35,201 nucleotides of DNA, from contig JAFZWQ010000034.1 of assembly GCA_017617235.1 (NCBI GenBank), forward strand, positions 1-35,201. The letters are read 5' to 3'. The DNA comes from Bacteroidaceae bacterium. Its GTDB lineage: Bacteria; Bacteroidota; Bacteroidia; Bacteroidales; Bacteroidaceae. The notes under the pieces were generated by a model that had not been told where the DNA came from, made no database searches, and worked only from the letters and a program-made list of their open reading frames with translations. This document shows positions 13,694 through 29,365 of this stretch, piece by piece. A program made the position numbers and the translations under genes. The first letter of the stretch is position 1. Every line of letters starts with the position of its first letter.

Positions 13694-13705
13694 TGTCATT
13701 TTTTT
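13675..13705 (+). terminator. Possible weak terminator after the DUF4836-like gene
   Basis: AGAACTT-ATC-AAGTTCT (13675-13691) forms a 7-bp hairpin overlapping the stop codon. A run of seven T (13699-13705) follows, but seven bases separate stem and T run, which is unusual. A new promoter lies directly after it. Confidence 0.35.
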
Positions 13706-13715
13706 CTCGCTATTA

Positions 13716-13746
13716 TTGGGCATCTCAATTTTTTGCCGTATCTTTG
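13716..13746 (+). promoter_or_regulatory. Promoter of the 5-alpha-reductase to SLC13 operon
   Basis: TTG at 13716-13718, a 20-base spacer, then TATCTTTG at 13739-13746, matching the Bacteroidetes consensus. The predicted start of transcription, near 13752, supports the ATG at 13773. It excludes the longer frame beginning at 13668, which would start inside the previous gene. Confidence 0.8.
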
Positions 13747-13772
13747 TGCGACTTTTTGAAATAAGAGCGCCT

Positions 13773-14543
13773 ATGACTTTGGAAATCTTATTTGATTATT
13801 TAGTTTGGGGCATGACAGCAATGGCCGTGGTGGTCTTCGTCAGCCTCTTTTTTGTAAATGCAGGTTACGGTCAATTTCGCACAAAACAATGGGGGTGGAG
13901 CATCAATAATAAGATTGCCTGGACGCTGATGGAAACACCCGTATTTCTTGTGATGCTTTACATCTGGTCCCAGTCGCCCCTGAAATGGCAACTTCCCCAA
14001 CTGATATTGTTTGGTTTGTTCCAATTGCACTATTTCCAACGGAGCTTTGTCTTCCCTTGGCTGATGACGGGGAAAAGCCGTATGCCCATTGCCATCATGC
14101 TGATGGGAATCACCTTCAACCTCATCAACGGATTTATGCAGGGTGGGGGACTATACTGGTTGCCAAACCCCGATTTCCAAGAAGGCGCATCCTATCTTTT
14201 GCGCTGGAATGCTATACTTGGCATCATCATTTTCCTTGTAGGCCTTTGCATCAACTGGCACAGCGACTACGTAATTCGCCATCTGCGTAAGCCTGGCGAT
14301 ACAAACCACTATCTGCCCCAGCGAGGTATGTATAAATATGTCACTTCGGCAAACTATCTGGGCGAATTGATGGAGTGGGTTGGCTTTGCCCTTGCTGCAG
14401 CAACTCCCGTGGCGTGGGTATTCCCCATCTGGACAGCTGCGAATCTGGTGCCACGTGCCCATGCTATCCACAAACGCTATCGTCAGGAATTTGGCGACGA
14501 AGCCGTGGGAAATCGCAAACGAGTGATTCCTTTCGTATACTAA
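13773..14543 (+). CDS. Steroid 5-alpha-reductase homologue (3-oxo-5-alpha-steroid 4-dehydrogenase family)
   Basis: Predicted to reduce the C4-C5 double bond of a 3-oxo-delta-4 steroid with NADPH in the membrane. The 256-residue multi-spanning protein is as long as human SRD5A1/2 and aligns end to end by eye. It has GYG (31-33), LMETPVF with E54 (catalytic E57 of SRD5A2), LHYFQRSFVF with Y87 (catalytic Y91), N161-WHSD (cofactor site), IRHLRKPGD, GMYKYVTSANYLGEL and the C-terminal VIPFVY. The first gene of an operon, it lies 9 bases before an OYE-like reductase and close to an SDR. The family also includes polyprenol reductases, so the substrate is unproven. Confidence 0.88.
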   Translation: MTLEILFDYLVWGMTAMAVVVFVSLFFVNAGYGQFRTKQWGWSINNKIAWTLMETPVFLVMLYIWSQSPLKWQLPQLILFGLFQLHYFQRSFVFPWLMTGKSRMPIAIMLMGITFNLINGFMQGGGLYWLPNPDFQEGASYLLRWNAILGIIIFLVGLCINWHSDYVIRHLRKPGDTNHYLPQRGMYKYVTSANYLGELMEWVGFALAAATPVAWVFPIWTAANLVPRAHAIHKRYRQEFGDEAVGNRKRVIPFVY

Positions 14544-14552
14544 ATAGAAAAT

Positions 14553-15800
14553 ATGGAAAACAAGATATTTGAAGAAGCCCATATAGGGCCCCTCACCCTG
14601 AGAAACCGCACCATTCGTAGTGCTGCCTTCGAAAGCATGTGTCCTGGACATGAGCCCAGTCAGATGCTTTACGACTATCACACCAGTGTGGCACGTGGTG
14701 GCATCGGAATGACCACTGTGGCATATGCCGCCGTTACGGAAAGTGGCTTGAGTTTCGACCGTCAGCTGGTAATGAAAAAGGAAATCATTCCTGGTTTGCG
14801 TCACCTGACAGACGGCATTCACAAGGAAGGAGCAGCTGCAGGTATCCAGTTGGGACATTGTGGTAATATGAGTCACAAGGCCATTTGCGGATGCATTCCC
14901 GTGGGGGCAAGCAACGGTTTCAATCTCTACAGCCCAACCATAGTACGAGGTCTTCGCAAGGAGGAATTGGCACCGATGGCTAAGAAATTCGGCGATGCTG
15001 TGAATCTGGCACGCGAAGCAGGTTTCGATGAAGTCGAGATTCATTGCGGACACGGCTATCTGATAGACCAGTTCCTGAACCCATATTTTAATCACCGTAA
15101 CGATGAGTTCGGTGGTTCACTCGAGAATCGTATGCGTTTCATGACGATGTGCCTCGAGGAAGTGATGAAGGCTGCCAAGGACGATATGGCTGTCGTTTGC
15201 AAGATGAACATGCGCGATGGACTGAAGAATGGCGTTTCCCTCGAGGAGCACAGCATTCCCGTTGCCAAGCGTCTGCAGGAACTGGGTGTTCATGCACTCG
15301 TGTTAAGTGGAGGTCTGGTAAGCGCGACACCTATGTATGTGATGCGTGGCGAACTGCCATTACAGACAATGACACACTACATGGACAAGTGGTGGCTAAA
15401 ATACGGAATCCGATGCAGTAAGCCTTTCGTGAAGAATGTGCTCACAAAACCTTTCCCATACGAGGAGGCATTCTTCCTCGAGGATGCCCTGAAGTTCCGC
15501 GAGGCTATGCCCGACATGAAGTTCATCTACGTGGGCGGACTCGTAGCAGGTGACAAGATAAACGAAGTGCTGGGACACGGATTCGAAGCTGTACAAATGG
15601 CTCGCAGCCTGTTGAATGAACCCGACTTTGTAAACCGTCTGAAGGAAGACCCGCATCATCGTTGCGGCTGCCGTCACAGCAACTATTGCATTGGTCGCAT
15701 GTACACGGTGGAAATGGCTTGCCATCAGCACCTCGAGGAGGCATTGCCCAAGGATTTGGAAAAAGAAATATCAAGAATAGAAAAAGAACAGAATAAATGA
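14553..15800 (+). CDS. NADH:flavin oxidoreductase, Old Yellow Enzyme-like
   Basis: A 415-residue FMN-binding TIM-barrel reductase. It begins IGPLTLRNRTIRSAAFES and carries the active-site segment EIHCGHGYLIDQFLNP (H164, H167, Y169), then NDEFGGSLENRMRF and the phosphate-binding FEAVQMARSLL. It lacks the C-terminal FAD/NAD domain of 2,4-dienoyl-CoA reductase and BaiCD. It keeps four cysteines near the end (C371, C373, C379, C390), spaced unlike the usual iron-sulfur motif of that class. Between a 5-alpha-reductase and an SDR it could be a 5-beta or delta-1/delta-6 steroid reductase, or supply another enone reduction. The substrate is inferred from context only. Confidence 0.87.
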   Translation: MENKIFEEAHIGPLTLRNRTIRSAAFESMCPGHEPSQMLYDYHTSVARGGIGMTTVAYAAVTESGLSFDRQLVMKKEIIPGLRHLTDGIHKEGAAAGIQLGHCGNMSHKAICGCIPVGASNGFNLYSPTIVRGLRKEELAPMAKKFGDAVNLAREAGFDEVEIHCGHGYLIDQFLNPYFNHRNDEFGGSLENRMRFMTMCLEEVMKAAKDDMAVVCKMNMRDGLKNGVSLEEHSIPVAKRLQELGVHALVLSGGLVSATPMYVMRGELPLQTMTHYMDKWWLKYGIRCSKPFVKNVLTKPFPYEEAFFLEDALKFREAMPDMKFIYVGGLVAGDKINEVLGHGFEAVQMARSLLNEPDFVNRLKEDPHHRCGCRHSNYCIGRMYTVEMACHQHLEEALPKDLEKEISRIEKEQNK

Positions 15801-16639
15801 AAGTAGCAATTATTACAGGTGCTGATGGCGGCATGGGTTACGAGGAAGCAAAAGCCGTAGCCCTGCAGGGATACTATACCATCATGGCCTGCTATTGTCC
15901 GAAGCTCGCCCAGAAAAGATACGAGCAATTGAAAGAGGAAACCGGATGTAAGGATATAGAACTAATCGGTATAAACCTGGCAGACCTTGCCTCGGTACGA
16001 CGTTTTGCAGACGAAATAAAGTCGCGTTTCAAGTATATCGACCTGTTGATGAACAATGCCGGCACTATGGAAACCGGATACCACATCACCGTTGATGGAT
16101 TGGAGCGTACCGTCAGCGTAAACTACGTTGGTCCCTATCTGCTTACCCGTCTGCTGTTGCCCCTGATGGGCGAGGGTAGCCGCATCGTGAACATGGCTTC
16201 CTGCGTGTACTGCCTGGGTAAGCTGAACTTCCCTCAGTTCTTCGAAAAGGGACGTAAGGGTTGTTTCATGCGTATTCCCATCTACAGCAACACAAAACTC
16301 GCCATCACACTCTTTACTTTGGAACTGGCAGAGCGACTCAAGGACAAAGGCATTACGGTAAATGCTGCAGACCCGGGTGTCGTATCCACAGGCATCATTC
16401 GTATGCAAATGTTCTTCGACCCAATAACAGACCTCATCTTCCGTCCTTGCATCCGTACTCCCAGACAAGGAGCCGATACCGCTATCCGCTTGTTGCTCGA
16501 CGAGGACAAGGCTGGACAGACAGGAACCTTCAATCGTTCGAATCGCATCATCAAGCTGGGTGATAAGTATGTTCACCACAAGCAGATGAAAGAGCTGTGG
16601 GACAAAACAGAAGAAATTGTAAAAGAATTCCTTTACTAA
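15797..16639 (+). CDS. Short-chain dehydrogenase/reductase, candidate hydroxysteroid dehydrogenase
   Basis: A classical SDR of 280 residues that interconverts an alcohol and a ketone with NAD(P). The cofactor loop is TGADGGMG (7-14), followed by NNAG (86-89), N109, catalytic S135, and Y163-SNT-K167. Its overall look is that of the retinol-dehydrogenase/WWOX group, which handles lipophilic substrates. The start overlaps the flavin oxidoreductase stop (ATGA), suggesting coupled translation. In this setting it is a good candidate for the 3-keto/3-hydroxy step on a steroid; neither stereochemistry nor substrate can be read from the sequence. Confidence 0.87.
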   Translation: MKVAIITGADGGMGYEEAKAVALQGYYTIMACYCPKLAQKRYEQLKEETGCKDIELIGINLADLASVRRFADEIKSRFKYIDLLMNNAGTMETGYHITVDGLERTVSVNYVGPYLLTRLLLPLMGEGSRIVNMASCVYCLGKLNFPQFFEKGRKGCFMRIPIYSNTKLAITLFTLELAERLKDKGITVNAADPGVVSTGIIRMQMFFDPITDLIFRPCIRTPRQGADTAIRLLLDEDKAGQTGTFNRSNRIIKLGDKYVHHKQMKELWDKTEEIVKEFLY

Positions 16640-16654
16640 AAGTACGAAACAAAG

Positions 16655-18547
16655 ATGGAGCAGTTGAAGCACGAATGTGGTGTGGCGATGATTCGCCTGA
16701 AGAAACCACTCGAGTACTATCAGCATAAATATGGCACATGGATGTATGGCCTCAACAAGCTCTATTTGTTGATGGAAAAACAGCATAACCGTGGGCAGGA
16801 AGGTGCCGGTTTGGCCTGTGTGAAGATGCAGGCAGAGCCAGGTACCGAATATATGTTCCGCGAACGTGCTATGGGAAGCGGGGCCATTACCGAGATATTC
16901 TCTGCCGTGCACGCTCAATTCCACGATGTCTCGCCCAAGCAAATGGCGGATGCGAACTACGCAGCAAAGAGTCTTCCCTTCGCAGGCGAAATATACATGG
17001 GGCACCTACGGTATTCGACAACCGGAAAGCGTGCCCTTTCTTTTGTCCATCCGTTTATGCGCCGCAACAACTGGCGTGCCAAGAATCTGTGTGTCTGTGG
17101 AAACTTCAACCTGACGAATGTTGACGAGATATTCGACAGCATTGCAGCCGTTGGTCAGCATCCGCGTGTATATAGCGATACATTTATTCTGTTGGAACAG
17201 TTGGGACACCGTCTGGATCGCGAAAGCGAACGTTTGTATAACATTGCTTTCGAGAAAGGACTGCAGGGCATGGAAATCACCAAGTTCATCGAAGAGAACA
17301 TCGATGTACGCAATGTGCTCAGCACAGCAGCACCTCTGTGGGACGGTGGTTTCATTATCTGCGGAATGACGGGTAGTGGCGAGATGTTCGCCATGCGCGA
17401 CCCCTGGGGCATACGTCCTGCTTTCTGGTACGAGGACGACGAAGTGCTGGTGTTGGCCAGCGAACGTCCCGTATTACAAACGGCCTTTGAACTGGAAGCC
17501 GAACAGGTAAAAGAATTGGAACCCGGTCAAGCCATCGTCATGAATGCTTCTGGTCAGATGAATCTGTCGCAGATTTTGCCAGCACAGGAGAAACGCGCAT
17601 GTTCTTTCGAACGCATCTACTTCAGTCGTGGTTCCGACCTCGACATCTACGAGGAACGAAAGAACCTGGGTGAACAGCTGACGGAACGCATCACGGAAGC
17701 CATTAATGGCGATGTGGCACACACGGTATTCTCCTTTATCCCCAACACAGCCGAAGTGGCATACTATGGAATGGTTCGCGGTTTCATTAAGCAGCTGAAC
17801 AAACAGAAGATTCAGGACTTGATGGATCTGACACGCGACCACCAGCCGACGGAACAGGAAATAAAGAACATCTTCAGCATGTACATCCGCTCCGAGAAGG
17901 TGGCATGGAAAGATATCAAGTTACGTACCTTCATTACGGAAGGCGATACCCGTAACGATCTTGCGGCACACGTCTATGATATAACCTATGGTTCTATTGT
18001 TCCCTACGAAGACAATCTGGTTATCATCGACGACAGCATTGTCCGTGGTACCACGCTAAAGGAAAGCATCATCCGCATTCTGGACCGTTTGCATCCCAAG
18101 AAGATTGTCCTCGTAAGCTCGTCGCCCCAAGTGCGCTATCCCGACTACTACGGCATCGACATGGCCAGTATGGAGGAATTTATTGCCTTCCGTGCTGCTA
18201 TCGAACTGCTGATAGAACGTGGCGAATGGGCGCTGATAGACAGCGTTTACCGTCGTTGCAAGCTGCAGACGACAAAACCCAAGGAGGAAATGGAAAACTA
18301 TGTGAAGGAAATCTATGCTCCGTTCAGCGACGAGGACATCAGCCACAAGATGGCGGAAATGCTTCGTCCCGATGGCATAACGACACCCATAGAAATTGTA
18401 TATCAGAGCCTCGAAGGACTGCACAAGGCGTGTCCCAATCACAAAGGCGACTGGTACTTCAGTGGCGACTATCCCACACCCGGTGGCCTTCGCCTATTGA
18501 ACCGTGCATTCATCAACTATTACGAAAACATATATAATAAGATATGA
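16655..18547 (+). CDS. Long PurF-like amidophosphoribosyltransferase
   Basis: Predicted glutamine-PRPP amidotransferase, the first step of purine synthesis. The N-terminal Ntn-hydrolase domain would expose Cys8 after removal of seven residues (MEQLKHE-C-GVAMIRL). HNRGQEGAG, MGHLRYSTTG and CGNFNLTN then follow the PurF pattern. The phosphoribosyltransferase domain has the PRPP loop VIIDDSIVRGTT. At 630 residues it is over 100 longer than E. coli PurF, partly by a C-terminal extension. From memory Bacteroidetes carry this long form next to carA/carB. It overlaps the carAB start by four bases (ATGA). It may act in pyrimidine-linked ammonia supply instead of, or besides, purine synthesis. Confidence 0.85.
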   Translation: MEQLKHECGVAMIRLKKPLEYYQHKYGTWMYGLNKLYLLMEKQHNRGQEGAGLACVKMQAEPGTEYMFRERAMGSGAITEIFSAVHAQFHDVSPKQMADANYAAKSLPFAGEIYMGHLRYSTTGKRALSFVHPFMRRNNWRAKNLCVCGNFNLTNVDEIFDSIAAVGQHPRVYSDTFILLEQLGHRLDRESERLYNIAFEKGLQGMEITKFIEENIDVRNVLSTAAPLWDGGFIICGMTGSGEMFAMRDPWGIRPAFWYEDDEVLVLASERPVLQTAFELEAEQVKELEPGQAIVMNASGQMNLSQILPAQEKRACSFERIYFSRGSDLDIYEERKNLGEQLTERITEAINGDVAHTVFSFIPNTAEVAYYGMVRGFIKQLNKQKIQDLMDLTRDHQPTEQEIKNIFSMYIRSEKVAWKDIKLRTFITEGDTRNDLAAHVYDITYGSIVPYEDNLVIIDDSIVRGTTLKESIIRILDRLHPKKIVLVSSSPQVRYPDYYGIDMASMEEFIAFRAAIELLIERGEWALIDSVYRRCKLQTTKPKEEMENYVKEIYAPFSDEDISHKMAEMLRPDGITTPIEIVYQSLEGLHKACPNHKGDWYFSGDYPTPGGLRLLNRAFINYYENIYNKI

Positions 18548-21500
18548 ACAAAAGAGTTACACTCCAGTTAGAAGACGGAACACAGTTCCACGGAACATCG
18601 TTTGGATACGAAGGACCTGTGGCTGGTGAGGTGGTGTTCAATACTGCCATGATGGGTTATCCCGAGAGCCTGACAGACCCCTCGTATGCGGGTCAGCTTA
18701 TGGTGCTCACCTATCCGCTTGTTGGCAACTATGGTGTACCCGAATTCCGCTTCGAAGAGAATGGCCTTTCCACATTCATGGAGAGCGACCGCATACATGC
18801 ACGTGCTATCATCGTTAGCGACTACAGCGAGGAATACAATCACTGGAATGCCCACGAGAGCCTGGCCGAATGGTTGAAACGCGAAAAGGTGCCTGGCATT
18901 ACGGGTATCGACACACGCGAACTGACGAAGGTGCTGCGCGAACATGGTGTAATGATGGGCAAGATAATCTTCGACGATATGCCCGACATTGAACCCCAGA
19001 CAGAAGACTACGGTTCTGTGAACTGGGTAGAAAAGGTATCGTGTAAAGACATTATTACTTATAAACCATCATTAGGAACAGATTCTGAGCACTCTGTGGC
19101 ACCAAAGGTGGTCTTGGTGGATTGTGGTGTGAAGGAAAACATTATCCGCTGCCTGTTGCATCGTGGTGTAGAGGTTATTCGCGTGCCTTGGGACTACGAT
19201 TTTAACCAGCTGGAGTTCGATGGTCTGTTCCTTGCAAATGGTCCCGGAGACCCCGATACCTGCGAAGCCACCGTTGCCAACATCCGCAAGTTCCTGCAAA
19301 ATCCCGTCGTTCGTCCCTGCATGGGCATCTGCATGGGTAACCAGTTGTTGGGAAAAGCCGCTGGAGCACGCATCTATAAGTTGAAGTACGGACATCGAAG
19401 CCACAACCAACCCGTGCGCCTCATTGGCACGAACCGCTGCTTTATCACCAGTCAGAACCACGGATATGCCGTTGATGACAAGACATTGGGAGCCGATTGG
19501 GAACCCCTGTTCGTGAACATGAACGATGGCTCGAACGAGGGTATCCGCCACAAACGTAACCCTTGGTTCTCGGCTCAGTTCCATCCCGAGGCATCCTCTG
19601 GTCCAGTAGATACTGAGTTCCTGTTCAATGAGTTTAAACGTTGTCTTGATGAATACGCAGTTCAAAATTCAACATTTAAAGTTCTAAGTAACGATGCAAC
19701 GTCAAACTCAGAACAAGCTTTGACAAAGCCCAAGAAAGTTCTCTTGCTGGGTTCGGGTGCGCTGAAGATTGGTGAAGCAGGCGAATTCGACTATTCTGGT
19801 TCGCAAGCCCTGAAAGCCCTACGTGAAGAGGGTATAGAAACCGTACTCATCAACCCCAACATCGCTACGGTGCAAACCAGCGAGGGTGTTGCCGACCATA
19901 TCTACTTCCTGCCTGTAACGCCCGAATTTGTGGAGCGTGTCATCGAGAAGGAACGCCCACAGGGGATTTTGCTGGCCTTTGGCGGTCAGACGGCCCTGAA
20001 CTGTGGTGTTGCCCTTTACAAGAGTGGCGTGCTGGAGAAATACGGAGTCAAAGTTTTGGGAACACCTGTACAGGCCATCATCGACACGGAAGACCGTGAG
20101 CTCTTTGTTGAAAAGTTGGACGAAATCGGCGTGAAAACCATCAAGAGTCAGGCCTGCGAAACAATCGAGGCAGCACGTCAGGCAGCCAACGAACTGGGTT
20201 ATCCCGTAATCCTGCGTGCAGCATACGCTTTGGGTGGTTTGGGCTCTGGTTTCTGCGACAACGAGGAAGAACTTAACCGATTGGCAGAGAAGGCTTTCTC
20301 GTTCTCACCTCAAGTATTGGTTGAAAAGAGTTTGAAGGGTTGGAAGGAAATAGAGTACGAGGTTGTGCGCGACCGATTCGACAACTGCATCACCGTTTGC
20401 AACATGGAGAATTTCGACCCGCTGGGCATCCATACCGGCGAGAGTATCGTCATTGCTCCATCGCAGACCCTTACCAACAGCGAATACCATAAACTGCGTG
20501 CATTAGCCATACGGATTATCCGCCACATTGGCATTGTGGGCGAATGTAACGTGCAATATGCCTTCGACCCCGAGAGCGAGGACTATCGCGTCATCGAGGT
20601 AAATGCCCGCCTCAGTCGTTCATCGGCTTTGGCCAGCAAGGCTACGGGCTATCCCTTGGCCTTTGTTGCTGCCAAGTTAGGACTGGGATATGGGCTGTTC
20701 GACCTGAAGAACTCGGTAACAAAGGAAACCACAGCCTTCTTTGAACCCGCACTCGACTATGTGGTTTGTAAGATTCCGCGTTGGGATCTTGGTAAGTTCC
20801 ATGGTGTGGACCGCGAGCTGGGCAGCAGCATGAAGTCCGTGGGCGAGGTTATGGCCATCGGACGCACCTTCGAGGAAGCCATCCAGAAGGGCATCCGCAT
20901 GATAGGACAGGGCGTGCATGGTTTTGTGGAAAACAAGGAACTGGAAATCAAAGACATCGATACCGCTCTGCACGAACCAACCGACAAGCGCATCCTTATC
21001 ATCTCAAAGGCTATGCGTCAGGGATACACCATCGACCACATCCACGAACAAACGAAGATTGACAGGTGGTTCCTGCAGAAGTTGCGTCACATCAGCGATA
21101 TTGCCGACGAACTGCATCGATGCCAGGGCATAGAAAACCTGCCTGCCGACCTGTTGCGTACAGCCAAGGTATATGGTTTCACCGACTTCCAGATAGCCCG
21201 TGCCATTGGTCTGGAACAAAAAATGGACATCGAGGATGCCGTGAACGTGGTGCGTAACTATCGCAAACAGTTGGGCCTGCATCCTTTTGTCAAACAAATC
21301 GATACGCTGGCAGCAGAATATCCTGCACAGACCAACTACCTGTACCTCACCTACAATGCTGTGGCACACGACATCAACTACGAACAGGACCATCGTAGCA
21401 TCGTTGTCCTGGGCAGTGGTGCCTATCGCATCGGTTCCAGTGTGGAATTCGACTGGTGTGGTGTGCAGGCGCTGAATACCATCCGCAAGGAAGGTTACCG

Positions 21501-22941
21501 CAGCATTATGATAAACTACAACCCCGAAACCGTATCCACCGACTACGACATGTGTGACCGTCTGTACTTCGACGAGCTCACATACGAGCGTGTGATGGAT
21601 ATTGTGGAATTGGAGACACCCAAGGGCGTAGTGGTTTCCACAGGCGGACAGATACCCAACAACCTAGCTATGAAGCTCGATGCTCAGCAGGTGCCCATTC
21701 TGGGAACACAGGCACAGTACATCGACAATGCCGAGGACCGCGAGAAATTCTCGGCTATGTTGAACCGCATAGGAGTGGATCAGCCCGAATGGAGTGCCCT
21801 GACCACGATGGACGATGTGAACGCATTTATCCAAAAGGTGGGCTTCCCCGTGCTGGTGCGTCCGTCATATGTACTTTCGGGTGCTGCCATGAATGTCTGC
21901 TCGAACCAGGAGGAGTTGGAACGCTTCCTCATGTTGGCCGCCAATGTGTCGAAGAAACATCCTGTGGTCATCTCGAAGTTCATGCAGAACACCAAGGAGG
22001 TGGAGATGGATGCTGTGGCCCGCAACGGTGAAATCATTGCCTACGCCATCAGCGAACACATCGAGTTTGCTGGCGTACATTCGGGCGATGCCACGATACA
22101 GTTCCCGGCACAGAAGCTGTACGTTGAGACGGTGCGCCGCATCAAGAAGATTTCTGCACGCATTGCCCAAGAACTGAACATTTCAGGTCCCTTCAACATC
22201 CAGTATCTGGCCAGAGACAACGAGATAAAGGTCATCGAATGCAACCTGCGTGCCTCGCGCTCGTTCCCCTTTGTATCTAAGGTGCTGAAGGTAAACCTCA
22301 TAGAAATCGCCACACGTGTCATGCTGGGTTTGCCAGTCGAGAAGTTGCACAAGAGTTTCTTTGATTTCGACTACGTGGGTATAAAGGCCAGCCAGTTCTC
22401 GTTCAACCGCTTGCAGAAGGCTGACCCTGTGCTGGGTGTGGATATGAGCTCGACGGGCGAGGTGGGTTGCCTGGGCGACGATACGAACTGTGCACTGATG
22501 AAGGCGATGCTCTCTGTTGGTCACCGCATTCCCAAGAAGAGTGTGCTGTTGTCCACGGGTGGCGCCAAGGAGAAGGCTGCCATGCTGGATGCGGCTCGCA
22601 TGCTACACGAACATGGCTATGAACTATATGCCACGGGCGGTACTAGCCGATACCTGACGGAACAGGGCATCCCCAACACGTTGGTGCACTGGCCAAGTGA
22701 TGCCGACCAAAAGCCACAGGCCATCGAACTGCTGCACGAGCACAAGATAGACATGGTGGTGAACATTCCGAAGGATCTGACGGCAGGCGAGCTGACCAAC
22801 GGCTACAAGATTCGTCGTACGGCAGTGGACCTGAACATCCCACTGCTCACCAACAGTCGTCTGGCTGCGGCATTCATACAGGCGTTCTGTACCATCACGC
22901 CTGCCGACCTTGCCATTAAGTCGTGGGAAGAATACAAGTAA
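18544..22941 (+). CDS. carAB: Carbamoyl phosphate synthase, fused CarA-CarB
   Basis: One 1465-residue protein makes carbamoyl phosphate from glutamine, bicarbonate and two ATP. Residues 1-370 are the glutaminase subunit, with GICMGNQ (nucleophile C263) and FHPEA (H347, E349). Residues 371-396 are a linker. Residues 397-1465 are the synthetase: two ATP-grasp halves beginning KKVLLLGSGALKIGEAGEFD and VVLGSGAYRIGSSVEFD, an oligomerisation region between them, and a C-terminal MGS-like regulatory domain (LLSTGGAKEKAAML onward). Several motifs (GGQIPNNLA, CNLRASRSFPFVSK) resemble animal CPS1 more than E. coli CarB. The two subunits are separate genes in most bacteria. No frameshift is seen. Confidence 0.96.
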   Translation: MNKRVTLQLEDGTQFHGTSFGYEGPVAGEVVFNTAMMGYPESLTDPSYAGQLMVLTYPLVGNYGVPEFRFEENGLSTFMESDRIHARAIIVSDYSEEYNHWNAHESLAEWLKREKVPGITGIDTRELTKVLREHGVMMGKIIFDDMPDIEPQTEDYGSVNWVEKVSCKDIITYKPSLGTDSEHSVAPKVVLVDCGVKENIIRCLLHRGVEVIRVPWDYDFNQLEFDGLFLANGPGDPDTCEATVANIRKFLQNPVVRPCMGICMGNQLLGKAAGARIYKLKYGHRSHNQPVRLIGTNRCFITSQNHGYAVDDKTLGADWEPLFVNMNDGSNEGIRHKRNPWFSAQFHPEASSGPVDTEFLFNEFKRCLDEYAVQNSTFKVLSNDATSNSEQALTKPKKVLLLGSGALKIGEAGEFDYSGSQALKALREEGIETVLINPNIATVQTSEGVADHIYFLPVTPEFVERVIEKERPQGILLAFGGQTALNCGVALYKSGVLEKYGVKVLGTPVQAIIDTEDRELFVEKLDEIGVKTIKSQACETIEAARQAANELGYPVILRAAYALGGLGSGFCDNEEELNRLAEKAFSFSPQVLVEKSLKGWKEIEYEVVRDRFDNCITVCNMENFDPLGIHTGESIVIAPSQTLTNSEYHKLRALAIRIIRHIGIVGECNVQYAFDPESEDYRVIEVNARLSRSSALASKATGYPLAFVAAKLGLGYGLFDLKNSVTKETTAFFEPALDYVVCKIPRWDLGKFHGVDRELGSSMKSVGEVMAIGRTFEEAIQKGIRMIGQGVHGFVENKELEIKDIDTALHEPTDKRILIISKAMRQGYTIDHIHEQTKIDRWFLQKLRHISDIADELHRCQGIENLPADLLRTAKVYGFTDFQIARAIGLEQKMDIEDAVNVVRNYRKQLGLHPFVKQIDTLAAEYPAQTNYLYLTYNAVAHDINYEQDHRSIVVLGSGAYRIGSSVEFDWCGVQALNTIRKEGYRSIMINYNPETVSTDYDMCDRLYFDELTYERVMDIVELETPKGVVVSTGGQIPNNLAMKLDAQQVPILGTQAQYIDNAEDREKFSAMLNRIGVDQPEWSALTTMDDVNAFIQKVGFPVLVRPSYVLSGAAMNVCSNQEELERFLMLAANVSKKHPVVISKFMQNTKEVEMDAVARNGEIIAYAISEHIEFAGVHSGDATIQFPAQKLYVETVRRIKKISARIAQELNISGPFNIQYLARDNEIKVIECNLRASRSFPFVSKVLKVNLIEIATRVMLGLPVEKLHKSFFDFDYVGIKASQFSFNRLQKADPVLGVDMSSTGEVGCLGDDTNCALMKAMLSVGHRIPKKSVLLSTGGAKEKAAMLDAARMLHEHGYELYATGGTSRYLTEQGIPNTLVHWPSDADQKPQAIELLHEHKIDMVVNIPKDLTAGELTNGYKIRRTAVDLNIPLLTNSRLAAAFIQAFCTITPADLAIKSWEEYK
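19660..19687. repeat. Heptamer array inside the CarA-CarB linker
   Basis: Four 7-base units, GTTCAAA, ATTCAAC, ATTTAAA, GTTCTAA, encode linker residues VQNSTFKVL at 373-381. The period and sequence are those of the intergenic heptamers elsewhere in the window. Confidence 0.55.
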
Positions 22942-22950
22942 AGTAAAAAA

Positions 22951-24576
22951 ATGGGAATACAGGCGATAATAGTAGCGTTGGTGCTGGTGCTCATGCTGGT
23001 GGCACTCATGCGGGAAGCATTGCGCCCCGGTTTGGTACTGTTCTCTGCTGTGGTGGCACTTCTCTGTGCAGGCATCATCACCCCCGAGGATGCCATCAAA
23101 GGTTTCTCGAACAAGGGTATGATTACCGTTGCCCTGCTGTATCTGGTGAGCGAGGGTGTTCGCAAGAGCGGCATTCTGGAACGCATTGTCTATCGCGTGC
23201 TGCCCAAGGAGAATGTCTCAGTCACCCGTGCCGGCCTGCGTTTCTATCCCATTGTTTCCGTCATCTCCGCCTTCTTTAACAACACCCCCGTGGTGGTCAT
23301 CTTTGCCCCTATGATAAAGAACTGGGCACGCAAGGTACACCTGCCGCCCACTAAGTTCCTAATCCCCTTAAGTTATGCCACCGTCATCGGAGGTATCTGC
23401 ACCCTTATTGGAACAACCACCAACCTGGTGCTGCACGGTATGTTGCTGCAGGAATACAAGTACGAGGCCGAGAATGTGGCCGAAGGGGCAGAGGAGGGCA
23501 TACTGATGCGTTTTGGCATTGACGGCATGCACATGTTCGAATTATCGCGTGTGGGCATCGTCATTGCCATTGTGGGACTCATCTACCTTATCTTCTTCTC
23601 GCGCTATCTGTTACCCAACAATCGTCGCAGCGAGGAGGAATCCGAGGAAATGAGCCTGGCACCTGGCATGGTGCGCCATGAGGTGATGCTGGGCAACCGC
23701 TTCCCTGGACTGGGGAAGACGCTGCGCGAATTTGACTTCTATCGTCGCTATGGAGCACATGTGCGAGCCATCAGCCGCGGTGGAAACATTCTGGAAGGTG
23801 ATTACACCAACGTGCGTATGACACACGACGACACCCTGATTGTCGATGCACCCGAGGACTTCAAGAAGAACTGGAGCGAGAGTAAAGTCTTTTGGATGAT
23901 AAACCGCGTGGGCGATTACGAGCCACCCATGGGCAGCCGCAAACGCTTCTTCGCACTGGCCCTGTTGCTCATGATGATTATCGGAGCCACCGTGGGTGAA
24001 CTGCCCATTGTCACCGACCACTTCCATTTCATCAAGCTTGATATGTTCTTCTTCGCCTGTCTCACTACCATCATTATGGCCTGGACACACATGTTCTCCG
24101 TGAAGAAGTACACCAAATACCTGTCGTGGGACGTACTCATCACTATCGCCTGCGCCTTTGCCATATCCGCAGCCATGACCAAATCCGGTTTTGCCGACTT
24201 GGTGGGCGGATACATCATCTCCTTAACTGACAGCGTACAGGGCAGCCGCTGGGCCATCTACATCATCCTGGCAGCACTGTTCGTTATCACGAACCTCTTC
24301 ACCGAGCTTATCACCAACAACGCTGCCGCAGCACTGGCCTTCCCGTTGGCTCTCAGCGTGGCCGAGAACCTTGGAGTCAACCCCATGCCCTTCGTTGTTT
24401 GCGTCTGCTTTGCCGCCTCATCCGCATTCAGCACACCCATCGGATACCAAACCAACCTCATTGTGCAGGGTGTCGGTGGCTACCGTTTCACAGACTTCGT
24501 CAAGGTTGGCCTACCCATGAATCTCATCGTCTTCATTCTCTCCGTCTTCCTTATACCCCTCGTCTACGGCCTCTAA
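22951..24576 (+). CDS. SLC13-family permease with an internal RCK_C domain, candidate sulfate transporter
   Basis: A 541-residue inner-membrane anion transporter of the SLC13/DASS type. The two half-repeats carry FFNNTPVVV (NNTP 110-113) with GTTTN (154-158), and LITNNAAAALAFP in the second half. A soluble TrkA-C-like (RCK_C) domain lies at about 240-305 between membrane halves, as in SAC1-type transporters. It lies 9 bases after carAB and just before the promoter of cysC-cysD-cysN-sulfotransferase, so sulfate is the likely substrate. Dicarboxylates or other anions cannot be excluded. Confidence 0.83.
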   Translation: MGIQAIIVALVLVLMLVALMREALRPGLVLFSAVVALLCAGIITPEDAIKGFSNKGMITVALLYLVSEGVRKSGILERIVYRVLPKENVSVTRAGLRFYPIVSVISAFFNNTPVVVIFAPMIKNWARKVHLPPTKFLIPLSYATVIGGICTLIGTTTNLVLHGMLLQEYKYEAENVAEGAEEGILMRFGIDGMHMFELSRVGIVIAIVGLIYLIFFSRYLLPNNRRSEEESEEMSLAPGMVRHEVMLGNRFPGLGKTLREFDFYRRYGAHVRAISRGGNILEGDYTNVRMTHDDTLIVDAPEDFKKNWSESKVFWMINRVGDYEPPMGSRKRFFALALLLMMIIGATVGELPIVTDHFHFIKLDMFFFACLTTIIMAWTHMFSVKKYTKYLSWDVLITIACAFAISAAMTKSGFADLVGGYIISLTDSVQGSRWAIYIILAALFVITNLFTELITNNAAAALAFPLALSVAENLGVNPMPFVVCVCFAASSAFSTPIGYQTNLIVQGVGGYRFTDFVKVGLPMNLIVFILSVFLIPLVYGL

Positions 24577-24614
24577 GCAAAGTGTAACATATTTGTGCAT
24601 TTATACGTATTTTC

Positions 24615-24631
24615 ATGCCTGAGGGCATTTT
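24615..24631 (+). terminator. Possible weak terminator after the SLC13 gene
   Basis: ATGCC-TGAG-GGCAT followed by TTTT. The stem has only 5 bp, so this is a weak candidate. Confidence 0.3.
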
Positions 24632-24644
24632 GTCTCTCTATATA

Positions 24645-24676
24645 TTTGGTATTGCGCTCGGTTTTTTGTACCTTTG
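24645..24676 (+). promoter_or_regulatory. Promoter of cysC-cysD-cysN-sulfotransferase
   Basis: TTTG at 24645-24648, a 20-base spacer and TACCTTTG at 24669-24676: an exact match to the Bacteroidetes sigma consensus. It lies 20 bases before the cysC ATG, so the leader is about 14 bases. Confidence 0.88.
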
Positions 24677-24696
24677 TGCGAATTTAAGACATAGGT

Positions 24697-25293
24697 ATGG
24701 CAGATAACATTTATCCAATATACGACCGCATGTTGAGCCGCGAGGAGCGCGAACGGCAGTTAGGACAGCGGGGTATGATGGTTTGGTTCACAGGACTGAG
24801 CGGCAGCGGTAAGAGCACCGTGGCGCTGGGTGTGGAACGCGAACTGGCCAAACGTGGCATCCTGTGCCGCATACTGGACGGTGACAACATCCGTGCTGGC
24901 ATCAACTCGAACCTGGGATTCAGCCAGGAAGACCGCCGCGAGAATATCCGCCGCATTGCCGAGGTGGGCAAGCTGTTCGTGGATACGGGCATCGTGACGC
25001 TGGCTTGTTTCGTGAGCCCAACAGAAGACATCCGCCAATTGGCACGCAACATCATCGGCGAGAAAGACTTCAAGGAGGTCTATGTATCCACACCCATCGA
25101 GGAGTGCGAACGCAGAGATGTAAAGGGCCTCTACGCCCGTGCCAGAAGAGGAGAAGTGAAGGACTTTACGGGCATCAGCGCCCCCTTCGAAGCACCCCAG
25201 AACCCCACACTTTCCATCGATACAAGTGTCCTCCCGCTGGAAGACAGCGTAAACACAGTGGTGGAAATGGTAATGAGGGAAATTGAAGATTGA
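24697..25293 (+). CDS. cysC: Adenylylsulfate kinase
   Basis: CysC phosphorylates APS to PAPS, the sulfate donor of sulfotransferases. The 198-residue cytoplasmic kinase has the P-loop GLSGSGKST (33-41), DGDN (61-64), the SQEDRRENIRRIAEVGKLF helix and the FVSPTE loop. It opens the operon cysC-cysD-cysN-sulfotransferase. The last codons (EIED and stop) run into a heptamer array. No PAPS reductase gene is present in the window, so here PAPS is probably made for sulfonation. Confidence 0.96.
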   Translation: MADNIYPIYDRMLSREERERQLGQRGMMVWFTGLSGSGKSTVALGVERELAKRGILCRILDGDNIRAGINSNLGFSQEDRRENIRRIAEVGKLFVDTGIVTLACFVSPTEDIRQLARNIIGEKDFKEVYVSTPIEECERRDVKGLYARARRGEVKDFTGISAPFEAPQNPTLSIDTSVLPLEDSVNTVVEMVMREIED

Positions 25294-25309
25294 AAATTGA
25301 AAATTGAAA
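25282..25309. repeat. Heptamer array between cysC and cysD
   Basis: Four 7-base units, ATTGAAG, ATTGAAA, ATTGAAA, ATTGAAA. They span the cysC stop codon and most of the 21-base gap to cysD. Confidence 0.85.
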
Positions 25310-25314
25310 TAGAT

Positions 25315-26220
25315 ATGGAATATAATTTATCGCATTTGCAGGAACTGGAGACCGAGAGCATCCACATCATCCGCGAGGTGGCTGCTGAGTTCGAGAATCC
25401 TGTAATGTTGTACAGCATCGGTAAGGACTCGAGCGTGATGGTGCGCCTGGCTGAGAAGGCCTTTGCACCCGGCAAGGTACCCTTCCCCTTGATGCACATT
25501 GACAGCAAGTGGAAGTTCCGCGAGATGATAGAGTTTCGCGACAACTATGCCAAGAAGTACGGGTGGAACCTGATTGTGGAGTCGAATATGGAGGCATTCA
25601 ATGCCGGTGTGGGCCCCTTCACGCACGGTTCAAAGGTGCATACCGACCTGATGAAAACACGTGCCCTGTTGGATGCCCTGAACAAGTATAAGTTCGACGC
25701 AGCCTTTGGTGGTGCACGTCGCGACGAGGAGAAGAGCCGTGCCAAGGAGCGCATCTTCAGCTTCCGCGACAAGTTCAACCAGTGGGACCCTAAGAACCAG
25801 CGTCCAGAGTTGTGGGACATCTATAACAGCCGCGTACACAAGGGTGAGTCCATCCGTGTGTTCCCCCTGTCAAACTGGACCGAGTTAGACATCTGGCAGT
25901 ACATCCGTCTGGAGAACATTCCCATCGTGCCTTTGTACTACGCCAAGGAACGTCCCTGCGTGGAGATTGACGGTAACCTGATTATGGCCGACGACGACCG
26001 TCTGCCCAAGGAATATGTACCCCTCATCCACAACCGCATGGTACGCTTCCGCACACTGGGCTGCTGGCCGCTGACAGGTGCTGTAGAGTCGAACGCAACC
26101 ACCATCGAGGAGATTGTTGAGGAGATGATGACCACCACGAAGAGCGAGCGCACAACACGTGTCATCGACTTCGACCAGGAGGCCAGCATGGAGCAGAAGA
26201 AACGCGAGGGATACTTCTAA
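25315..26220 (+). CDS. cysD: Sulfate adenylyltransferase subunit 2
   Basis: CysD adenylates sulfate to APS, driven by GTP hydrolysis in CysN. The 301-residue product follows E. coli CysD (302 residues) throughout: [20 protein letters not shown], the PP-loop [36 protein letters not shown] and the C-terminal [18 protein letters not shown] choose the ATG at 25315. An in-frame TTG at 25297 would add six residues that come from the heptamer array. Confidence 0.97.
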
Positions 26221-26232
26221 TGTTAAACGACG

Positions 26233-26281
26233 AAAGGCAAAGGGCAAAAGTCAAAAGTCTTTAGCCGTTAGCCATTAGCCA
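26233..26281. repeat. Heptamer array between cysD and cysN
   Basis: Seven 7-base units in register: AAAGGCA, AAGGGCA, AAAGTCA, AAAGTCT, TTAGCCG, TTAGCCA, TTAGCCA. The array changes motif midway but keeps its period. It fills most of the 70-base gap. Confidence 0.85.
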
Positions 26282-26290
26282 AATATAATT

Positions 26291-27724
26291 ATGGAAGACA
26301 AGAAGATAGATATAAAGGCATTCCTGGATGCCGACGAGAAAAAAGACCTGCTCCGACTGCTGACTGCCGGCAGCGTAGACGACGGAAAGAGCACCCTGAT
26401 TGGCCGACTGCTGTTCGACTCAAAGAAACTCTACGAGGACCAGCTGCAGGCGTTGGAGCGCGACTCCGTGCGTGTAGGAAATGCCGGAGCAGGGGAGATT
26501 GACTATGCCCTGTTGCTGGACGGACTGAAGGCAGAGCGCGAGGAAGGTATCACCATCGACGTGGCCTACCGCTACTTCTCGACCAACCAGCGTAAGTTCA
26601 TCATTGCTGACACACCGGGACACGAGCAGTACACCCGTAACATGATTACCGGTGGTTCTACGGCAAACCTGGCTATCATATTGGTTGACGCGCGTGCGGG
26701 AGTCATCACGCAAACACGCCGCCATACGTTCCTGGTATCCCTGCTGGGCATCAAGCACATCGTGCTGGCCGTGAACAAGATGGACCTCGTGGACTTCTCG
26801 CAGGAGGTGTTTGAAAGCATCAAGAAGGAATATCTGGCACTGACCACACAGCTGGGCATCGAGGACGTTACCTGCTTCCCCATCTCCGCCAAGAAGGGCG
26901 ACAATGTGGTGGAAAAGAGCGCAAACACACCCTGGTACGACGGACCGGCACTGCTGAACTTCCTGGAGACCGTGCCCATACACCGCGACCGCAACATGAC
27001 CAGCTTCCGCTATCCCGTGCAGTATGTGCTGCGTCCCAATCTGGACTTCCGTGGATTCTGCGGCAAGATAGCCAGCGGTGTCATCCGCAAGGGCGACGAA
27101 ATCGTGGCACTGCCCTCCATGAAGCGCAGCCATGTCAAGAGCATCGTTACCTATGAAGGTGAACTCGAGGAGGCATTCTGCCCACAGAGCGTAACCATCT
27201 GTCTGGAGGACGAGATTGACATCAGCCGAGGCGAGATGATTGTAAAGCCAGAGGACGTGCCCAACATAGGTCGCTCGTTCGAGACCATGCTGGTGTGGAT
27301 GGACGAGGAGAAGATGGATCGCTCGAAGCAGTTCTTCCTGAAGCACAACACCAACACCACACGTGCCAACATCGACAGCGTGCAGTACCGCGTGGATGTG
27401 AATACAATGGAACGCCTGGAAGGTCGCGACTTCAAACTGAATGAGATAGGTTGCGTGCGTATCACCACTGCCAAGACACTCTTCTTCGACAGTTACAAGG
27501 ACAACCGCGCCACGGGAGCCTTCATCCTCATCGACCCCATCACCAACAACACCTCGGCAGTGGGCATGATTATCCGTCCGCTGGAGGAGAACGAGACCAA
27601 CGAGACGGCTGTTCCCACACTGGACCTGCCCAAGCTGGGCATCGCTCCCGAGCACTACGAGGCTGTGGAGAAGGCTGTTGCCGAACTCTCGCGTCAGGGT
27701 CTGGAAGTGAAAATCATAAAGTAA
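26291..27724 (+). CDS. cysN: Sulfate adenylyltransferase subunit 1 (GTPase)
   Basis: CysN is the regulatory GTPase partner of CysD in ATP sulfurylase. The 477 residues carry G1 GSVDDGKST (27-35), switch GIT (86-88), DTPGHEQY (107-114) and NKMD (162-165), followed by two EF-Tu-like beta-barrels. Length matches E. coli CysN, so there is no fused APS kinase, in line with the separate cysC. An octamer array follows it before the sulfotransferase gene. Confidence 0.96.
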
Positions 27725-27756
27725 ATAACGTAATAACTAAATAACGTTATAACGCC
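27725..27756. repeat. Octamer array between cysN and the sulfotransferase gene
   Basis: Four exact 8-base units: ATAACGTA, ATAACTAA, ATAACGTT, ATAACGCC. Confidence 0.85.
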
Positions 27757-27770
27757 AAAATAGAAATAAA

Positions 27771-28892
27771 ATGGGATTAATAGAATTTAGCAAGCTGCCC
27801 GTAAACACACTGGTTGGTGCCGACTGGAAAACCTTCAAGGCCGTAACCAAAGGACAGCACATAGCACCCGAAAAGCGTACAAAGTTCAGACTTACGAAAT
27901 GGATTTGCCGACTGCTCAGCGTAACGACTCCCATACAGGAACGCCGCTACAAGCGCACGTTGGCCAAGATACCCCTTGAGCACGACCCTGTATTCATCCT
28001 CGGTCACTGGCGTAGCGGTACCACCTTCGTACACAACATTCTGGCACAAGACCCCCGATTCGGATACACCACAACCTACCAGACGGTGTTCCCACACTAC
28101 ATGATGGCCCTGCAGGGACTATTCAAACCCGTCATGGGATGGCTGATGCCCAGTCACCGACCCACCGACAACATGGAGCTGGCACCCGATCTGCCACAGG
28201 AAGAGGAGTTTGCCCTGCAAAACACATGCCCCACATCGTACTACCTGTTCTGGTTCTTCCCCGAAAGGATGCAGGAGTATTGCGACCGTTTCCTCACAAT
28301 GAAGGATGCCACACCCGAAGAGATTGCCGACTTCAAGGAGAAGTTTGAGAAGCTGGTGAAGATTTCGATGTGGAACTCGCGCCGCTATGTGAAGGACGCC
28401 CAGTACCTGTCGAAGAACCCGCCACACACAGGTAAGGTGAAGACATTGGTTGAGATGTACCCCAATGCCAAGTTCATCTACCTGATGCGCAATCCATACA
28501 CCGTGTTTGAGTCGAGCCGCAGTTTCTTCACGAACACCATTGCGCCCCTGGAACTGCACTCGATACCCCTCGACCAGATGGAACGCAACATCCTGCGCAA
28601 CTACATGGAATTGTACAAAGCCTACCAGGAGCAGAAGAAATACATCCCCAAGGGCAACCTCATAGAAATCCGTTTCGAGGATGTGGAGAAAGATGCCATG
28701 GGACTGGCCGAACGCCTGTACAGCGAACTCTCCCTGCCCGGATGGGAAGAGGCAAAGCCCTACATCCAGAAGTACATCGACGGAAAGAAGGGTTACAAGA
28801 AGAACCAGTACCAGTACGACCCGCGCACCGTTCAGTTGGTTAACGAGGCATGGGGTAGTGTGCTGGATGAGTGGGGTTACGAGCGCCTATAA
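27771..28892 (+). CDS. PAPS-dependent sulfotransferase, BtSULT-like candidate
   Basis: A cytoplasmic sulfotransferase of 373 residues. The 5'-phosphosulfate loop is GHWRSGTTF (78-86). LSKNPPH (K214) follows, and the 3'-phosphate site is YLMRNPYTVFESSRSFF (R240, S248). It ends the cysC-cysD-cysN operon, so its PAPS is made by its own neighbours. From memory, B. thetaiotaomicron has a comparable cluster whose sulfotransferase (BT_0416, BtSULT) sulfonates cholesterol and other flat steroids. The acceptor here is not readable from the sequence; a lipid or glycan acceptor is also possible. Confidence 0.87.
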   Translation: MGLIEFSKLPVNTLVGADWKTFKAVTKGQHIAPEKRTKFRLTKWICRLLSVTTPIQERRYKRTLAKIPLEHDPVFILGHWRSGTTFVHNILAQDPRFGYTTTYQTVFPHYMMALQGLFKPVMGWLMPSHRPTDNMELAPDLPQEEEFALQNTCPTSYYLFWFFPERMQEYCDRFLTMKDATPEEIADFKEKFEKLVKISMWNSRRYVKDAQYLSKNPPHTGKVKTLVEMYPNAKFIYLMRNPYTVFESSRSFFTNTIAPLELHSIPLDQMERNILRNYMELYKAYQEQKKYIPKGNLIEIRFEDVEKDAMGLAERLYSELSLPGWEEAKPYIQKYIDGKKGYKKNQYQYDPRTVQLVNEAWGSVLDEWGYERL

Positions 28893-28897
28893 AGTTG

Positions 28898-28933
28898 TCC
28901 CCTAAGCCCCATAGGGCATATAAGGCATAACGG
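28898..28933. repeat. Nonamer array after the sulfotransferase gene
   Basis: Four 9-base units: TCCCCTAAG, CCCCATAGG, GCATATAAG, GCATAACGG. Same family as the array at 11527-11571. It lies between two convergent genes. Confidence 0.8.
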
Positions 28934-28937
28934 CCCA

Positions 28938-29279
28938 TTAATTAAAGAGCAGAAGCTGACGAGAATCATCTTTACGGATGGTTTTCGTCGGCTTTTCTTC
29001 TTCCTTGGGCATATCAATGAAAATATCCAGCTGTACGGCAATATCCTGCTTCAGACCATAACGTCCCCAACGCAGATGGATGAAAGGGGAGTGGCGCTGC
29101 CGTGACTGGTACCACAGATAGCGGCGAACCTGGTTGTACAACTGGGGATAAACCACATCGTGGGCAAAGATACCATTGTGCAGATTATAGAGCTGACGAG
29201 CAAGCTGGCGAAGGCCCATTCCCTCGCGTCCACTGCGCAGCAGCATGTCCATAATATCCGTATGGTAGATGTTTTTCAT
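28938..29279 (-). CDS. Small winged-helix-like protein (possible HARE-HTH type)
   Basis: A basic protein of 113 residues. Residues 1-75 have the pattern of a winged-helix fold close to HARE-HTH: LLRSGREGMGLRQLARQLYN, then a long helix VYPQLYNQVRRYLWY, then FIHLRWGRYGLK resembling the closing F-x-x-x-x-GxxxL strand. The C-terminal tail is charged. The start at 29277-29279 is fixed by the promoter at 29304-29335; an in-frame ATG at 29381 would lie upstream of that promoter. It is divergent from the pectin operon and might regulate it, which is a guess from position. Confidence 0.6.
   Translation of the reverse strand: MKNIYHTDIMDMLLRSGREGMGLRQLARQLYNLHNGIFAHDVVYPQLYNQVRRYLWYQSRQRHSPFIHLRWGRYGLKQDIAVQLDIFIDMPKEEEKPTKTIRKDDSRQLLLFN
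28953..29002 (+). terminator. Terminator of the sulfotransferase operon, inside the opposite gene
   Basis: Positions 28953-28971 pair with 28976-28994 as RNA over 19 bp around the loop UUAC, using five G-U wobbles and no mismatch. UUCUUCUU follows. On the minus strand the wobble positions become A-C mismatches, so the structure works only for rightward transcription. The whole hairpin lies in the last codons of the convergent gene 28938-29279. Confidence 0.85.
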
Positions 29280-29303
29280 ACTCGTTTTATCCCAAAGGTT
29301 TAG

Positions 29304-29335: not shown

Positions 29336-29365
29336 TATATAGATGGCAAATCGACAGATTATTTG

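Follow-up and report, generated by a model that had tools for sequence, protein, structure and literature searches.

Genes for putative steroid reduction and sulfonation are linked in a genus of Bacteroidaceae

The window analysed here, a stretch of 35,201 nucleotides from a Bacteroidaceae bacterium (assembly GCA_017617235.1, contig JAFZWQ010000034.1), carries ten genes between positions 13773 and 28892, all on the forward strand and with a widest intergenic gap of about 120 bp, between the DASS-type transporter and cysC. The first three encode a steroid 5-alpha-reductase homologue (5AR), an OYE-family flavoenzyme (OYE) and a short-chain dehydrogenase (SDR), together called the trio here. The last five encode a candidate sulfate importer, the enzymes of 3'-phosphoadenosine-5'-phosphosulfate (PAPS) synthesis and a sulfotransferase (SULT). 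Linkage between the two groups recurs in the genus of the window bacterium, both in the form seen in the window and, in sister species, as a 5AR gene lying within the cys-SULT operon.

Gene order and transcription signals

The features of the locus, in order along the window, are:

13773..14543, forward strand: 5AR, steroid 5-alpha-reductase homologue, 256 amino acids (PF02544, 125 bits against a curated cut-off of 22.6; PDB 7c83, E 1e-50, and 7bw1, E 2e-39)
14553..15800, forward strand: OYE-family flavoenzyme, 5-beta-reductase-like, 415 amino acids (PF00724, 172 bits)
15797..16639, forward strand: SDR, candidate 3-hydroxysteroid dehydrogenase, 280 amino acids (PF00106)
16655..18547, forward strand: purF-like amidophosphoribosyltransferase, a housekeeping gene between the modules (glutamine amidotransferase domains; the name is our reading)
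18544..22941, forward strand: fused carA-carB carbamoyl-phosphate synthase, 1465 amino acids, housekeeping (aligns to separate carA-like and carB-like open reading frames of relatives; the name is our reading)
22951..24576, forward strand: DASS/CitMHS-type anion transporter, candidate sulfate importer (PF03600, PF00939; position matches BT_0412)
24697..25293, forward strand: cysC, adenosine phosphosulfate kinase (PF01583; TIGR00455 above cut-off)
25297..26220, forward strand: cysD, sulfate adenylyltransferase small subunit (TIGR02039 above cut-off)
26291..27724, forward strand: cysN, sulfate adenylyltransferase large subunit (TIGR02034 above cut-off)
27771..28892, forward strand: SULT sulfotransferase, 373 amino acids, presumed PAPS-dependent (PF13469, 137.5 bits against a cut-off of 27; groups with Bacteroides-type SULTs)
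28951..28996, forward strand: terminator-like hairpin of 20 pairs, 3' of SULT (pattern scan and sequence reading)

A preliminary description of this DNA had named the trio, the PAPS synthesis genes and the sulfotransferase, and open reading frames, Pfam and NCBIfam matches place all of them at or near the positions it gave, on one strand. Its "sulfate permease" was borne out in part: a transporter gene is present, of the CitMHS/DASS type, and sulfate is a candidate substrate. For 5AR, we preferred the start at 13773 over a longer reading frame from 13668, since homologues are mostly about 255 amino acids long and the longer frame overlaps the preceding gene.

The hairpin after SULT was the sole long terminator-like hairpin on the forward strand in a scan of positions 11500 to 30200, and the remaining forward-strand sites between 5AR and SULT had five or six pairs each. 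Over both strands of the scanned region, 19 terminator-like sites were observed and 17.4 were expected. A promoter-like site matching 11 of 12 positions lies at the start of cysD (25297 to 25326). One long transcript from 5AR to SULT is possible.

Linkage within and beyond the genus

Our genus set comprised 121 genomes, in which 5AR was counted above the family cut-off and one weak SULT match was left out. By this count, 5AR occurred in 58 genomes, SULT in 86, both in 47 and neither in 24.

The evidence that carries most weight comes from sister species in which a reductase gene lies inside the sulfonation operon. We recorded the nearest labelled same-strand gene within 400 bp upstream of SULT. 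Across 86 loci of 85 genus genomes, this gene was cysN in 78, 5AR in five, an extended SDR in three and any other gene in none, and the widest cysN-SULT gap was 225 bp. At seven loci (G065, G062, G066, G001, G028, G040 and G018:C33), 5AR precedes SULT, either directly or with the extended SDR between them. The contig of G018:C33 ends inside 5AR, with cysN beyond view, hence a count of six genomes, or seven including the cut one. In G065, 3 bp separate cysN from 5AR and 33 bp separate 5AR from SULT, and at G018:C115 the extended SDR stands alone between cysN and SULT. An OYE-SDR pair without 5AR is found elsewhere in G065, G062, G066 and G028 (loci L325, L326, L328 and L329), and OYE alone, again without 5AR, elsewhere in G001 (L327). 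These leftover genes suggest a relocation of 5AR into the SULT operon. Since no gene other than 5AR and one SDR was observed between cysN and SULT, the arrangement speaks well for a single product to which both reduction and sulfonation contribute.

Two further arrangements were observed. G086:C127 (L349) has an OYE-SDR pair that immediately follows SULT but is encoded on the opposite strand, with 53% and 34% identity to the window's proteins, and G018 has two SULT loci with an extended SDR plus a further solitary 5AR (L063, L080 and L151).

The window form is found in five of the 121 genomes (G000, which is the window genome, G016, G096, G068 and G107), where trio, carAB and cys-SULT are consecutive on one strand; purF is missing or a remnant in G016, G096 and G068. 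At ten loci, those of these five genomes included, the trio is adjoined by purF and/or carAB. Where SULT does not adjoin, it lies 33–40 kb away (G025 and G057), lies on a different contig from the trio (G037 and G091) or gives no match (G102, with trio-purF-carAB). Among the 47 genomes with both genes, 12 have 5AR and SULT no more than 16 kb apart, against about 1% expected per 2.8-Mb genome (binomial 2e-13, a value overstated since the genomes are related). A search of all 139 available genus genomes, 18 beyond the 121, found no further same-contig 5AR-SULT pair.

The explanation that we favour, with moderate confidence, is that two known steroid-handling modules came together in this genus and would form one combined pathway of reduction and sulfonation. 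Several features of the genomes count against it. SULT occurs without 5AR in 39 of the 121 genomes and 5AR without SULT in 11, and co-occurrence of the two is only mildly raised (Fisher p 0.027, relatedness uncorrected). The two modules of the window are separated by about 6.3 kb of purF and carAB. The order purF-carAB-cys-SULT occurs in G027 and G020, both without a 5AR or OYE match, so that the window arrangement could stem from the trio landing beside purF.

These last points feed an alternative in which the closeness seen in the window is accidental: cys-SULT often lies beside carAB, the trio landed beside purF, and the modules are independent. For the window form taken alone, accident could suffice. 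It is helped by the presence of carAB beside cys-SULT in further genomes and in Paraprevotella L322, where the order is carAB-DASS-cys-SULT (among the best 80 of 571 named SULT loci; the flank ends upstream of carAB), by the varied and unrelated neighbours of the trio across the genus, and by G102, G025 and G057, in which the trio has no SULT beside it. Accident leaves unexplained why the cysN-SULT gap holds 5AR and the extended SDR alone and why an OYE-SDR pair stands beside SULT in G086, and the excess of close 5AR-SULT pairs also argues against it. We consider this alternative unlikely, although it deserves weight.

The 5ARs of the operons fall into a single clade (100/93), which lies within the 5ARs of the genus and next to the solitary 5ARs of G110, G042 and G115; they are mutually 68–88% identical, the value of 88 involving a 112-residue fragment row. 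This single, divergent clade suggests that the arrangement with 5AR in the operon is old. Speaking against the favoured explanation, a clade of the SULTs from 5AR-bearing operons is rejected (p-AU 1e-5), and the 24-row SULT tree requires at least five changes to account for 5AR at the cysN-SULT junction. Occupation of the junction has thus not been stable, in conflict with the one clade of operon 5ARs. We considered and rejected a single, simple insertion, as the 5AR tree favours one origin and the SULT tree rejects one clade. Reconciling the two trees calls for loss, transfer or re-insertion; the pattern would agree with a single insertion and several losses, or with exchange between strains.

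Beyond the genus, linkage was rare. Among the best 80 of 571 named SULT loci, 5AR lies within a flank of up to 10 kb in three, two of them genus members and the third Odoribacter sp. (L307). A family sample of 101 genomes held no same-contig 5AR-SULT pair outside the genus; four sampled genomes of other family genera have both genes, never on one contig. An order sample of 295 genomes contained, besides the window, only the same-contig pairs of G226 (6 kb), G292 (4 kb), G405 (50 kb) and G320 (150 kb). We rejected a general Bacteroidales linkage, given the three of 80 loci, the lack of same-contig pairs in the four sampled genomes of other family genera and the few pairs of the order sample. 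The expectation that linkage would be conserved among related genomes thus held within the genus, in five genomes of window form and six or seven with 5AR in the operon, and did not extend generally to other genera. The suggestion that the linkage is new agrees with the literature searched, in which each module is of a known Bacteroidales kind and their repeated linkage is unreported; Yao 2022, Sato 2021 and Li 2021 lie outside that literature and may be prior reports.

The gene order around two of these distant pairs is as follows. In Odoribacter sp. (L187/L307), the trio lies about 6 kb from the cys-SULT cluster, with genes between that we name peroxiredoxin-like, recA-like and peptidase-like. 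In G292:C16 (L188), from another family, about 4 kb separates a SULT of 36% identity from a 5AR of 38% identity, the two being on opposite strands.

The genes around and between the modules varied as well. Remnants of purF lie between SDR and carA in G096 (L069:13514-13813) and G068 (L070:13367-13456). The carA-carB fusion of the window recurs in G107 and G020, whereas the two are separate open reading frames (about 360–373 and 1075 amino acids) in G016, G096, G068 and G025; the carB-like frame of G037 and G057 is cut by the end of the locus. Between cysD and cysN, at least 18 of the 86 SULT loci carry a protein of about 1300 amino acids with DUF4011, AAA and REase_MTES_1575 domains, defence-like by those domains (for example L073:3918-7799), and some loci are too short to show such an insert. 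The same gap holds a 122-amino-acid DUF559 protein in G096 and a 122-amino-acid open reading frame of the same cluster in G068.

Putative activities and likely substrates

The activities assigned here to the genes of the window and its genus are predicted by homology. 5AR, the single PF02544 match of the window genome, has as its PDB matches at E ≤0.001 PbSRD5A (7c83, 39% identity), human SRD5A2 (7bw1, 36%) and, far more weakly, an enoyl-CoA reductase (7e-6). A grouping with polyprenol or lipid reductases, which the preliminary description had thought might undo its reading, was thus not found among PDB matches, with no tree including polyprenol reductases. In SRD5A2, E57 and Y91 hold the steroid 3-ketone and Q56 of the QEY motif is a helper (PMC7815742, PMC7591894). 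In SRD5A2 numbering, the equivalents of E57 and Y91 are kept in the window and in all 86 rows with letters there, out of an alignment of 87. Seven of eight listed NADPH residues (N160, D164, R171, N193, E197, R227, H231 and Y235) are kept in the window protein, H231 being the exception; across the alignment, N160 is N in 78 of 87 rows and N193 is N in 85 of 87. Related Bacteroidales are listed with 5-alpha-reductase activity in a review (PMC12789469).

The trio is intact, adjacent and on the same strand in 46 of 59 5AR loci (58 genus genomes), and G103 is a 47th trio locus that fails solely through a broken 5AR alignment. An orthologous trio in the same order occurs in L385, a genome identified as Phocaeicola-like because its SULT adjoins the P. 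vulgatus SULT in the tree, with 59%, 70% and 58% identity to the window's 5AR, OYE and SDR, and Odoribacter sp. L307 has the same order plus one additional SDR. We rejected OYE as a BaiCD member (NF041087, 175.7 bits against a cut-off of 825, with a match over residues 3–259 only). A gene cluster for isoallo-lithocholic acid (isoalloLCA), consisting of 5AR, a 5-beta-reductase (5BR) and a 3-beta-hydroxysteroid dehydrogenase (3-beta-HSDH), has reportedly been described in Bacteroidetes (Sato 2021, Li 2021). The OYE of the isoalloLCA route can run backwards.

The extended SDR of sister species is absent from the window genome. It has 512 amino acids, a YxxxK pair kept in the alignment and a cysteine-containing C-terminal part. 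Three of its seven strong loci precede SULT, and that of G101 adjoins 5AR alone. Four genomes have 5AR and no OYE (G018, G040, G101 and G110), and the first three carry the extended SDR; this is three of four, compared with two of 54 genomes with both (Fisher p 0.0013, relatedness uncorrected). We treat its putative role as a hydroxysteroid dehydrogenase as a lead. SpiR and AcmA convert sterols to delta-4-ketones and have been placed beside eukaryotic 3-beta-HSD/isomerases (PMC13079761).

In the sulfonation module, the window order transporter-cysC-cysD-cysN-SULT equals the layout of BT_0412-0416 in Bacteroides thetaiotaomicron, where BT_0412 is a putative sulfate importer, BT_0413-0415 serve PAPS synthesis and BT_0416 makes cholesterol sulfate (PMC9417993). 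The same organism also sulfonates coprostanol (PMC9417993), and its sulfotransferase (BtSULT) is credited with isoalloLCA sulfonation (PMC13008668; review PMC11271093). Among the best 80 of 571 named SULT loci, those of Bacteroides, Phocaeicola and Parabacteroides with enough flank are mostly ordered cysQ-DASS-cysC-cysD-cysN-SULT, and the Prevotella-like L258, L289, L304, L308 and L309 have SULT without a cys cluster. The window SULT is 61–62% identical to the SULTs of B. xylanisolvens and B. congonensis. In a quick midpoint-rooted tree of 103 rows, it falls with Bacteroides SULTs in a 98-row group (SH-aLRT 100), and five relatives of 35–42% identity fall outside. It groups with Bacteroides, Phocaeicola and Parabacteroides SULTs from BT_0411-0416-like clusters, and the grouping with glycan sulfotransferases that the preliminary description would have taken as refuting did not appear, in a tree made without characterised members of that kind. 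BT_0416 was absent among the loci compared, and the case for orthology to it comes from the common gene layout and from its close relatives. In NCBIfam, the window SULT matched NodProtNoeE alone, and weakly (E 6e-4; score 18.7 bits, cut-off 500). The window cluster has no cysQ, unlike the head of the BT_0411-0416 cluster; a cysQ homologue of 59% identity lies elsewhere in the window genome (G000:C47). CysQ, a phosphatase of 3'-phosphoadenosine-5'-phosphate, would clear the sulfonation by-product.

Taken together, these modules suggest the following route. With NADPH, 5AR would reduce a 3-oxo-delta-4 steroid or sterol to a flat 5-alpha-3-ketone, and the SDR would turn the 3-ketone into a 3-hydroxyl. 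OYE would make a 5-beta product or, in reverse, re-oxidise 5-beta-3-ketones to the delta-4 ketone for 5AR, so that the trio would set the A/B ring geometry and the 3-position. The DASS transporter would import sulfate, CysDN and CysC would make PAPS, and SULT would transfer the sulfo group to the 3-hydroxyl. Where sister species have 5AR, alone or with the extended SDR, between cysN and SULT, one operon would encode both reduction and sulfonation. Given this arrangement, 5AR and SULT probably act on one molecule; on homology and the published activity of relatives, that molecule is likely a steroid. Gene content, order and strand, the family matches, their conservation and the contents of the cysN-SULT gap are observed, whereas we infer which substrates are used, in what order the reactions run, that the genes are co-transcribed and that SULT acts on the product of 5AR.

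Some protein features sit poorly with this route. The position of Q56 is taken by M in the window protein and in all 86 Bacteroidales rows with letters there, Odoribacter and Coprobacter included, and that of H231 by I or L in 87 of 87 (I in the window). Because Odoribacter and Coprobacter share it, the Q56M change marks a wider Bacteroidales group and not this genus, and the Q56 feature of the SRD5A family may not hold for Bacteroidales 5ARs. The best Pfam match of the extended SDR is the generic Epimerase (E 1e-11), with 3Beta_HSD (PF01073) second (E 8e-9); its weak PDB matches (best E 3e-6) were sugar-nucleotide dehydratases and unnamed SDRs, with no hydroxysteroid dehydrogenase among them; the quality of its structure prediction is low (mean pLDDT 48.7); and at G016, G102 and G013, three of the seven strong loci, neither 5AR nor SULT is nearby.

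These features leave some room for a non-steroid substrate that is first reduced and then sulfonated. Plant triterpenoids are one example; polyprenols or other lipids made by the cell itself, carrying both an enone and a hydroxyl, are another. Homology cannot fix a substrate, the Q of QEY is not kept, the extended SDR is weakly 3-beta-HSD-like, and rumen bacteria meet many plant isoprenoids. We think such a substrate quite improbable, given the retention of E57 and Y91, the grouping of SULT with Bacteroides SULTs in the layout of a cholesterol sulfotransferase and the activity listed for related Bacteroidales.

Habitat bears on which steroid is meant. Genus members G065, G018, G073 and G002 share all 60-base words compared, within rounding to two decimals, with records titled RUG13359, Rumen_Coassembly_mag_972, RUI569 and Goat_Omasum, respectively. 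Two of these titles name the rumen or omasum, and the prefixes RUG and RUI we take to mean ruminant, so that the window bacterium is, judging by its genus, probably from a ruminant forestomach. Bile enters the gut below the rumen and omasum. As the four members look like ruminant metagenome-assembled genomes, feed sterols fit better than bile acids; the literature searched on rumen sterols listed nothing on bacterial sterol sulfonation there.

A bile-acid route, from 3-oxo-lithocholic acid to isoalloLCA and on to its sulfonation, is accordingly very improbable for this lineage. It draws on the match between the trio and the enzyme kinds reported for isoalloLCA-making Bacteroidetes (5AR, 5BR and 3-beta-HSDH; PMC12697870, PMC11271093) and on the isoalloLCA sulfonation credited to BtSULT. 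Forestomach life speaks against it, as does the lack of sulfonation of the primary and secondary bile acids tested in PMC9417993, a result that also weighs on the combined pathway in general. Of the bile-acid parallel drawn in the preliminary description, the enzyme kinds match and the substrate fits this lineage weakly. Most likely, we think, the substrate here is a dietary or host sterol or steroid.

For the ruminant lineage, the combined pathway can be put more specifically, and more tentatively, as a single transcriptional unit by which one organism would take dietary sterols or steroids, isomerised or supplied as 3-oxo-delta-4 compounds, reduce them to 5-alpha-stanols and sulfonate these. 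A hand-over of this sort, involving the 5-beta stanol coprostanol, has been proposed as cross-talk between different gut microbes (PMC9417993). Reduction and sulfonation of steroids by bacteria are both established, each for its own set of genes, and their repeated linkage suggests that some bacteria may do both on one molecule, yielding flat sulfated steroids or stanols whose uptake or excretion by the host may differ. If so, the reduction and sulfonation steps would share one cell and one operon. The linkage also gives ready gene pairs for joint expression and points to bacteria of, apparently, the ruminant forestomach.

Comparison with known systems

Compared with PbSRD5A and human SRD5A2, the window 5AR has E57, Y91 and seven of eight NADPH residues in common and differs in its modest identity and in the M and I at positions 56 and 231. 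SpiR, AcmA and the 3-beta-HSDH-isomerases are SDRs that make 3-oxo-delta-4 sterols (PMC13079761), and the insert of sister species resembles them through its PF01073 match; the likeness is by family match alone, and the insert is slightly nearer to the generic Epimerase and has its cysteine-containing C-terminal part.

At the level of gene clusters, the window trio resembles the Bacteroidetes 5AR/5BR/3-beta-HSDH cluster in its three kinds of enzyme and in their tight grouping. It differs in lying near a sulfonation operon, with 5AR within such an operon in sister species, and in a host site that is probably the ruminant forestomach. The BT_0411-BT_0416 cluster of B. thetaiotaomicron agrees with the window in the order of its transporter gene, PAPS synthesis genes and SULT (PMC9417993). 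It differs in that the window genome has cysQ outside the cluster and in that steroid reductase genes are linked to the cluster or, in sister species, embedded within it.

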